Assembly: GCA_001829185.1 (NCBI GenBank)
Contig: MIAR01000004.1
Span: 1 to 64,000 of the forward strand
DNA: 64,000 nucleotides
Direction: 5' to 3'
From: Spirochaetes bacterium GWB1_60_80
GTDB lineage: Bacteria; Spirochaetota; Spirochaetia; Treponematales; UBA12059
Shown here piece by piece: positions 38,997 through 41,469 of this stretch. The notes under the pieces are model-generated. The model saw nothing but the letters and a program-made list of their open reading frames with translations, had not been told where the DNA came from and made no database searches. Position 1 is the stretch's first letter. Each line of letters starts with the position of its first letter. Made by a program: the position numbers and the translations under genes.

Positions 38997-40160
38997 TCAG
39001 TGTCCTCCCTCATGCAGACTCGTCAATATGGCTTGCAAGGGCACATTGAGGAAATCCATGCCTAATTCAGTTGGACTAATACAAGCACCAGATATCTGTA
39101 AAAATTGCGGGAAATCTGCCATGGCCGCAATCAATTTACGGCGCGGGATGCCAGGAATTTGTTGCGCTAGCCGATCCATGTCCAGACCATGGCGAGTTCG
39201 TAAGGCTAACATGATATATTCAAAAATTGCATCGTTGCCTTCGATGGTTTCATCGATACCCGCCTTAGTCGGATTTCTGCAGTAATTATCTAAATCAGGA
39301 TCATTGTAATGACGCAAATACTTGCCGTCGACAATTGGTTTATTGCCGACGGCTGATGGTCCTAGGCCATACCAGGTATCAAGGTCCCAGTAATGTTGAT
39401 TATGGCGGCAATTCTGTCCAACCTGAGTAAAATTTGACACTTCGTAGCGCTGAAACCCACTACCTTGCAAGGTATGAAGTGTTTCTGTCCAGCTAGCATC
39501 GGTGTCATCCTGACTGGGCAATTGCTGTATCCGAGAATTTATTGCCACCGCTAAGCGACTGGCTGGCTCAAGAATTAATTCGTAGAAAGAAATATGCCCA
39601 GGCTGCAATTCCAGGACCCTGGAAATTGTATCGCTGACGCTCTTGGCAGTTTGATGCGGCAGGCCATACATTACATCAACAGACCAGGGTATCTTGGTAC
39701 AACCAAGCAGTTTATCTACAGAATCAAGTACTTGACCAGCGCTTCCCCTTCGACCACAAGCAACCCGAACCTTGTCATCCAAACTCTGGATACCGATACT
39801 GAGACGATTAATAAAAGAACTAGATAAAAGACTTAACAAGTCAGCGTTTATATCAAGTGGATTAATTTCCAAGCTTACTTCTGTCTGCACCGTCGAAAAA
39901 TTAGCCAGGATTATGCACAACTCATCTAGTAATTCTATGGGCAAGGCCGAGGGAGAACCACCGCCGATATAGATTGTGTCGAAGTGAGAAATATCATTTT
40001 GAATGATAGTTGCCTCTAGTTCTTGACGCAGGCTAGTTAAAAACTTTTCGGGGTACGATCCTGGCTCCAGAACGGTGCTAAAATAATCGCAATAGGCGCA
40101 ACGCTGTATACAAAATGGCACATGTACATATAACGAAGGAAGCACTCTGGATTCTGGCAC
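38997..40160 (-). CDS. hemW: HemW-type radical SAM heme chaperone
   Basis: A 387-aa protein related to coproporphyrinogen III dehydrogenase. N-terminal SLYVHVPFCIQRCAYCDYFS carries the CxxxCxxC cluster motif; TIYIGGGSPSALP, EVSLEINPLDI and RLSIGIQSLDD are family blocks, and ALRTRHGLD near the end is typical. HemW members bind heme and lack the extra Cys of true HemN. It lies between lepB and pdxY with gaps of five and six bases. Confidence 0.92.
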   Translation of the reverse strand: MPESRVLPSLYVHVPFCIQRCAYCDYFSTVLEPGSYPEKFLTSLRQELEATIIQNDISHFDTIYIGGGSPSALPIELLDELCIILANFSTVQTEVSLEINPLDINADLLSLLSSSFINRLSIGIQSLDDKVRVACGRRGSAGQVLDSVDKLLGCTKIPWSVDVMYGLPHQTAKSVSDTISRVLELQPGHISFYELILEPASRLAVAINSRIQQLPSQDDTDASWTETLHTLQGSGFQRYEVSNFTQVGQNCRHNQHYWDLDTWYGLGPSAVGNKPIVDGKYLRHYNDPDLDNYCRNPTKAGIDETIEGNDAIFEYIMLALRTRHGLDMDRLAQQIPGIPRRKLIAAMADFPQFLQISGACISPTELGMDFLNVPLQAILTSLHEGGH

Positions 40161-40165
40161 TTGAA

Positions 40166-40897
40166 TCAGAGCAAAAAGGGTTTGGTCAAAGGCCAGTATT
40201 TAAAAACTACCTTCCCTTGAATTTCATCGCTGGTGATGACTCCAAAATACCGGGAATCGTTTGAATGAATCCGATTATCATTCATCACGAAAAATTCATT
40301 TTCTTGTAAGGTCATCTCGTCCAAGTAACCGGAAAAGGGCATTTCATTTCGCCAGCCAACTGGTCGACCAGTTCTTAACGTATCATAAATCTGGTTGACA
40401 ATTTCGTGTTCCGTCAGGAAATGTATTGATCCTGCTTGCCGAATGTAAACGACATTATCTTCAATTTTTATAGTATCACCAGCAATCGCCACGATCCGCT
40501 TGACTAATGGCCGGTTCAGGTCGTCGATAGACTTGCTAATACCGCTCTTTTGCAATGTAAAAAACCGAATAAACCGATTTACCATGTGCGCGAGAGGATT
40601 CAAGTCTGTTGCACTTGGGTTATCCATCAATACGACATCACCTCTAGCCGGTAAATTATGGAAGGTGTTGATCCGATTAGAGAACGGCAACTTAAATCCA
40701 TAGGCGGATGGCGATACCAGTATATAGGAGTTTACGGCAATGGCTGGAATCATGCCATCTGTGCGAATTACGTATGACTTTAAGAGATATGAACTTGTTA
40801 ACTCAAAAAAAAGAAACAGTATGACGGCTAAACTTGCCATTTGCCAGATTAGCTTTTGTCTTTTTCGGAGTACTTCGTATGATTCAACCCGCTTCAT
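40166..40897 (-). CDS. lepB: Signal peptidase I homologue lacking the catalytic serine
   Basis: About 243 aa. An N-terminal transmembrane helix (about 20–38) precedes the S26 fold. The family blocks are recognisable: VIRTDGMIPAI (where active enzymes have SGSMxPTL), RGDVVLM, VKRIVAIAGD with the general-base Lys (K133), and MNDNRIHSNDSRYFG. The nucleophile Ser just before Met is Gly48 (codon GGC, 40756–40754). This predicts an inactive protease, a different nucleophile, or a structural role; another signal peptidase elsewhere would be needed. ATG 40897 preferred over TTG 40909. Divergent from smpB. Confidence 0.82.
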   Translation of the reverse strand: MKRVESYEVLRKRQKLIWQMASLAVILFLFFELTSSYLLKSYVIRTDGMIPAIAVNSYILVSPSAYGFKLPFSNRINTFHNLPARGDVVLMDNPSATDLNPLAHMVNRFIRFFTLQKSGISKSIDDLNRPLVKRIVAIAGDTIKIEDNVVYIRQAGSIHFLTEHEIVNQIYDTLRTGRPVGWRNEMPFSGYLDEMTLQENEFFVMNDNRIHSNDSRYFGVITSDEIQGKVVFKYWPLTKPFLL

Positions 40898-40963
40898 GCT
40901 ACCCGCCAATCTAGATCAGACCCTATTCAAACCAGAAATAAAGGTTAGCATTATTTCGATGGG

Positions 40964-41013: not shown

Positions 41014-41469
41014 ATGGATGGACATAAACTGATCGCACAAAATAGACGTGCCCGATTCTACTACTCCGTGGAAGAATCAATTGAATGCGGAATGGTATTG
41101 CATGGTTCAGAAGTCAAATCCATTCGAATAGGAATGATTTCCTTTCCTGATGCTTATGCGGTAATCGAAAACAACGAACTTTGGCTAAAAAATGTGCATA
41201 TTAGCGAATATACGTTTAGCTCAATATATAACCATCAGCCAGATCGCTCCAGGAAGTTACTGGTTCATGGCGAAGAATTAAAACGCCTGAAGCGCAAAAT
41301 TGAGGAAAAAGGCTATACACTTATACCTCTCGATTTTCATTTTCGTAATGGTCGAGTGAAAGTTGAACTTGGTATATGCAAAGGTAAAAAAATGGCCGAC
41401 AAACGCGATTCCATCAAAGATCGAGATAGCAAGCGTGATATGGCACGTGAACTCAGGGATAAGCGATAA
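41014..41469 (+). CDS. smpB: SsrA-binding protein SmpB
   Basis: A 151-aa partner of tmRNA in rescue of stalled ribosomes. The N-terminal block AQNRRARFYYSVEESIECGMVLHGSEVKSIR, then WLKNVHISEY, KLLVHGEELKRL, and the basic C-terminal tail (KDRDSKRDMARELRDKR) that reads the empty mRNA channel are all present. tmRNA itself is not in the window. The gene leads a two-gene unit with rsmD. Confidence 0.96.
   Translation: MDGHKLIAQNRRARFYYSVEESIECGMVLHGSEVKSIRIGMISFPDAYAVIENNELWLKNVHISEYTFSSIYNHQPDRSRKLLVHGEELKRLKRKIEEKGYTLIPLDFHFRNGRVKVELGICKGKKMADKRDSIKDRDSKRDMARELRDKR

Follow-up and report, generated by a model that had tools for sequence, protein, structure and literature searches.

Bacterial signal peptidase I is usually regarded as a one-protein enzyme. 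What, then, is the role of a full-length homologue that has no nucleophile? The question is raised by a gene in a 64,000-nucleotide stretch of DNA (hereafter, the window) from Spirochaetes bacterium GWB1_60_80 (assembly GCA_001829185.1; contig MIAR01000004.1, positions 1 to 64,000). We refer to this gene as lepB2, a name coined in this analysis for a syntenic spirochaete family with the gene order smpB-lepB2-hemN. The LepB2 family has lost the Ser-Lys dyad of the S26 peptidases many times, its dyad-less members are under purifying selection, a paralogue with intact catalytic residues occurs in the same genomes, and the genes for the two are tightly linked in an operon in many of them. The pseudo-enzyme status of the family is well supported, and the protein from the window is very likely a pseudo-enzyme, as judged from its sequence. 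On balance, we consider LepB2 to be a membrane-anchored pseudo-signal-peptidase paralogue that is maintained by selection and that probably serves as an accessory partner of the canonical LepB.

The lepB2 gene of the window and its product

The product of lepB2 comprises 247 amino acids from a TTG start, or 243 from an ATG at 40897. Residues are numbered from the TTG unless stated; the initial annotation counted from the ATG, and its Gly48 and K133 are Gly52 and Lys137 here. The features of the gene are as follows:

40166..40909, (-): lepB2, encoding an S26 signal-peptidase homologue without its nucleophile (open reading frame, PF10502, TIGR02227 and alignment with E. coli LepB)
40787..40879, (-): single N-terminal helix, residues 11-41, a predicted membrane anchor (AlphaFold2 model; predicted local distance difference test, pLDDT, about 90-97 there)
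40736..40774, (-): box B, residues 46-58, YVIRTDGMIPAIA (alignment with E. coli LepB and orthologues)
40754..40756, (-): GGC codon of Gly52, in the nucleophile column (AGC, Ser, in a sister genome; sequence and alignment)
40499..40501, (-): Lys137, counterpart of the general base Lys145 (alignments)
40241..40285, (-): box E, residues 209-223, MNDNRIHSNDSRYFG, with Asn as the counterpart of Gly272 (alignments)

By its profile matches, the product is an S26 protein of full length: it scores 101.8 bits for Pfam PF10502, where the cut-off is 22.9, and 92.3 bits for NCBIfam TIGR02227, where it is 47. In a phmmer alignment, QIPSGSMMP of E. coli LepB is paired with VIRTDGMIP of the window protein, which puts Gly52 at Ser90; the forward strand reads GCC at 40754-40756, i.e. 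GGC on the coding strand. The glycine that the initial annotation had reported in place of the catalytic serine of box B is thus correctly placed, and the lysine of box D that it considered retained is indeed there, in the sequence VKRIVAIAGD. Its statement that the other boxes persist holds for box E (DNRIHSNDSRYFG), which keeps the pattern DNR..S.DSR..G, but not for the counterparts of Pro87, Gly89 and Gly272, which have become Arg, Asp and Asn.

The S26 fold is predicted to be retained. An AlphaFold2 model built with 35 family sequences (mean pLDDT 85.5; predicted template-modelling score 0.81) consists of the N-terminal helix and an S26 beta domain. With VIA-align, this model superposes on E. 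coli LepB (1t7d) with a Z of 16.1 and a root-mean-square deviation (rmsd) of 2.3 over 149 residues, and on SipA of Streptococcus pyogenes (4n31) with a Z of 14.6 and an rmsd of 2.5 over 128 residues. The likeness to E. coli LepB, a type I signal peptidase (MEROPS S26A), extends to the predicted fold, the N-terminal membrane helix, recognisable boxes and the profile score; the window protein differs from it by the residues named above, and the LepB2 family by the usual loss of Ser and/or Lys.

Erosion of the dyad under purifying selection

Searches of relatives and of named genome contigs (59 loci; contig titles Spirochaetes, Spirochaetales, Spirochaetaceae, Treponema and, once, simply "bacterium") yielded 92 distinct LepB2 sequences, 87 of which align well and were used for the column counts. 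The nucleophile column holds 58 Ser, 15 Thr, 10 Ala, 2 Gly, 1 Val and 1 Asp, and Leu also occurs when all 92 are considered; the general-base column holds 45 Arg, 29 Lys, 4 Glu, 3 Tyr, 2 Val, 2 Gln, 1 Phe and 1 Leu. Ser and Lys occur together in only 17 of the 87 (18 of all 92), and Ser, Lys and Gly272 in 11. The initial annotation had held that orthologues with Ser would speak against a pseudo-enzyme. Such orthologues are literally the majority, but most of them have lost the general-base Lys instead; thus, their Ser does not restore the case for an enzyme across the family. A quick maximum-likelihood tree, from which the nucleophile and Lys columns were left out, requires at least 18 changes between Ser and other residues and at least 4 between Lys and other residues, the figure of 18 being approximate since many inner branches are weakly supported.

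Among 224 LepB2 columns, the nucleophile ranks 52nd in conservation and the Lys 63rd. Further drift is seen at Gly272 (kept in 33/86), at Ser278 (26/85) and at Pro87, which has given way to many residues; the Asp and Arg of box E are retained in nearly all members. Small residues (S, T, A or G) occupy the nucleophile column in 85 of the 87 sequences, which suggests a packing constraint at this position.

LepB2 proteins without the dyad are constrained. By the NG86 method, non-synonymous over synonymous divergence (dN/dS) is 0.079/0.558 (0.14) for a pair with Ala in both members, 0.088/0.742 (0.12) for a Thr-Arg pair and 0.143/1.984 (0.07) for a Thr-Tyr pair. The only same-genus relative of the window gene, which is also the nearest (sister genome G001; 52% protein identity), is so distant that synonymous sites are saturated and dN/dS was not used as a number; differences at codon positions 1, 2 and 3 (0.43, 0.20 and 0.69) nevertheless show the pattern of constraint. 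Further, the window protein matches 30 of the 32 other columns with a conservation of 80% or more, which equals the family median, and so is not decaying. The suggestion of the initial annotation that the gene encodes a pseudo-enzyme is thus strengthened by a family that has eroded its dyad many times while remaining under purifying selection.

The catalytic paralogue and the lepB2 locus

The genomes that encode LepB2 also encode canonical paralogues, LepB1 (about 330 amino acids) or LepB3 (about 600). Profile matches to LepB1/LepB3 were found in 56 of 59 relatives and in all 48 of good quality, usually as one copy; G013 and G041 have two. Among the relatives searched, the long LepB3 form was not seen where lepB1 stands in tandem with lepB2. 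Every catalytic residue examined is kept in LepB1/LepB3: Ser90, Lys145 and Pro87 in 57/57 each, and Gly272 and Ser278 in 56/56 each of those that reach box E. The differing retention indicates that paralogues of the same genomes are under different constraint at exactly the catalytic positions. The window protein scores 272 bits against a LepB2 profile and 124 against a LepB1/LepB3 profile, the former value being favoured by its own row in that profile, and it carries HFLTEHE, a match to the motif H[FY]LTE[FYH]E that is invariant in LepB2 and absent from LepB1/LepB3.

Two side observations concern these paralogues. LepB1, LepB2 and LepB3 all carry a hydrophobic insert (RF.TLQ / F.YM.TL) that follows box C and precedes the Lys strand; in the window it spans 40559-40597 (residues 105-117) and is predicted to be a helix. 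Two long lepB3 genes also stand in tandem in one genome (L202 of G041; G013 C33).

The gene order of the family is a divergent smpB, an optional lepB1, lepB2 and hemN, as seen in the window and in most loci whose length suffices to reveal it. The neighbours of lepB2 in the window, both named by resemblance and used as synteny markers, are:

38997..40160, (-): hemN-like gene, conserved downstream neighbour, starting 5 bp past lepB2
41014..41469, (+): smpB-like gene, divergent conserved neighbour

The window's lepB2 thus lies in the family position, between a divergent smpB and hemN; since just 104 bp separate the starts of lepB2 and smpB, there is no lepB1 upstream. In tandem genomes, the distance from the lepB1 stop to the lepB2 start is usually -1 to 21 bp, and such a tight operon occurs in about half of the relatives; in many genomes the two genes are not adjacent. 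Besides smpB and hemN, no client gene was conserved next to lepB2 in the loci inspected, and a plasmid search returned nothing but distant generic S26 matches. In one genus (g17 of family f4; G030, G050, G036 and G044), LepB2 has shrunk to about 190-200 amino acids and lost the Lys region, its gene lying directly behind lepB1.

LepB2 is present throughout the order to which the window belongs; for the remainder of the class, the evidence of its presence is weaker. Beyond the order, a search of the phylum with inspection of loci revealed that an intact LepB1 gene followed by a dyad-less gene recurs in other Spirochaetota. In genomes whose small size suggests Borrelia, the LepB2-like protein of the tandem carries Glu in the nucleophile column and Ser or Ala in that of the base; in another family, the dyad columns hold Val and Leu; in a further family, which may be Leptospira, Thr replaces the nucleophile and Lys is kept. 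The homology of these distant tandem members to LepB2, which is based on profile score and adjacency, is less certain. An S26 protein with Thr at the nucleophile position (KSSTMMNT) and Lys also recurs in genus g47 of family f19 (L252, L253 and L264).

The initial annotation had called for a second signal peptidase to be sought in the window's genome. Its assembly (3.60 Mb in 59 contigs, 96% complete) encodes two more S26 proteins, each with a Ser-Lys pair: a LepB3 of 596 amino acids on contig C43 (L003 679-2469; IPSESM and PLIKRLIGL) and a protein of 277 amino acids on contig C59 (IRGDSM and VKRV). Canonical activity can therefore come from elsewhere in the genome. Automatic annotation labels LepB2 "signal peptidase I" despite the absent nucleophile. 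Indeed, TIGR02227 scores the window protein above its cut-off and the long, dyad-bearing C43 protein below it; standard annotation would therefore name the wrong gene, an annotation trap.

A proposed accessory partner of LepB and the alternatives

We propose that LepB2 would hold or present exported preproteins without cutting them; alternatively, it may help to keep the catalytic LepB stable at the membrane. The partner would be the one canonical LepB of the genome, be it the lepB1 product of the same operon or the version of about 600 residues encoded elsewhere. In the window's genome this would be the C43 protein, and signal peptides would be cut by it and/or by the small C59 protein. A partner role is favoured by the tight spacing of lepB1 and lepB2, by the canonical LepB in every good-quality relative and by the recurrence of the tandem outside the order. 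Both the physical partnership and the binding of preproteins are inferred from such context.

Several points weigh against this proposal. The 11 LepB2 proteins that retain Ser, Lys and Gly272, all from the window's family and one neighbouring family, may include active members, and the closest relative of the window protein, that of G001, keeps the Ser-Lys pair. The window's lepB2 adjoins no gene for a catalytic LepB. A generic role in holding signal peptides is made less likely by the drift of the substrate-edge strand (Pro87, Gly89). Further, the partnership and the inactivity alike are read from sequence and genomic context.

A stronger version, which we advance tentatively, is that the spirochaete signal peptidase has two parts, a catalytic LepB and LepB2, the latter being an obligate pseudo-peptidase by which preproteins are selected or held. 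Equally tentative is the analogy that such an arrangement might be, in principle, a bacterial counterpart of the accessory subunits of the eukaryotic signal peptidase complex.

Another possibility, somewhat doubtful in our judgment, is that LepB2 acts independently of signal peptidase, as an assembly factor or chaperone whose cleft binds particular exported proteins. The model for this is SipA, a pilus assembly factor with an S26 fold and no complete Ser-Lys dyad: its dyad residues have become Asp and Gly, its cleft is kept, and it is essential to pilus assembly (PMC4049620). The Z of 14.6 between the LepB2 model and SipA, the motif that LepB2 does not share with LepB1/LepB3, and the many genomes in which lepB1 is not adjacent are consistent with such a role. 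However, the operon with lepB1 points to the signal peptidase itself, and no conserved client gene adjoins lepB2 apart from smpB and hemN. SipA is encoded in Gram-positive pilus operons with sortase and pilin genes, whereas lepB2 lies in spirochaetes between smpB or lepB1 and hemN, and, unlike SipA, the window protein still has its Lys. SpsA of Staphylococcus aureus, a homologue without two conserved catalytic residues that is dispensable (PMC12445088), is likened to LepB2 by description, in that it stands beside an active paralogue (SpsB); LepB2 differs in that it forms a syntenic family of spirochaetes, which has lost the dyad on many separate occasions.

It is unlikely that LepB2 has remained a protease, in some species or in all, whether by another nucleophile or base (e.g. 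Thr as nucleophile) or, in the Ser-Lys members, as a second, narrowly specific signal peptidase. The nucleophile is replaced most often by Thr, some members keep Ser-Lys, and the Asp and Arg of box E persist. Yet Ala, Gly, Val and Asp also occur at the nucleophile, the base is Arg, Glu, Tyr, Val or another non-Lys residue in 58/87, and Gly272 and Ser278 are not retained. Gly occupies the nucleophile position of the window protein, and no Ser, Thr or Cys near the site is conserved in the family, while adjacent box residues have drifted too. The alternative nucleophile that the initial annotation envisaged is therefore rejected, although Thr may serve as nucleophile in some members.

Least probable is a recent loss of function in the window copy or a base-call error of GGC for AGC: although the G001 gene has AGC, a single transition away, and LepB2 has shrunk in g17, the window's reading frame is intact, its conserved columns and codon-position pattern are those of a constrained gene, and Gly, Ala and Thr recur in many unrelated genomes, so that decay is rejected, as is sequencing error as the whole explanation.

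We return to LepB2 as a probable accessory partner. For BB0031, the published designation is simply LepB signal peptidase I (PMC3757035). In the literature searched, whose coverage leaves out most subscription journals, no description was found of a dyad-less spirochaete LepB, of TP0185 or of BB0030/BB0031 as dyad-less, nor was any assay of the LepB2 component found. If LepB2 is an accessory subunit, counts of lepB genes overstate the number of active signal peptidases in such genomes, and spirochaetes, treponemes and probably borreliae among them, use an extra component in protein export. The family further offers many natural active-site losses within one fold, and is thus useful for studying how an enzyme becomes a non-catalytic partner.
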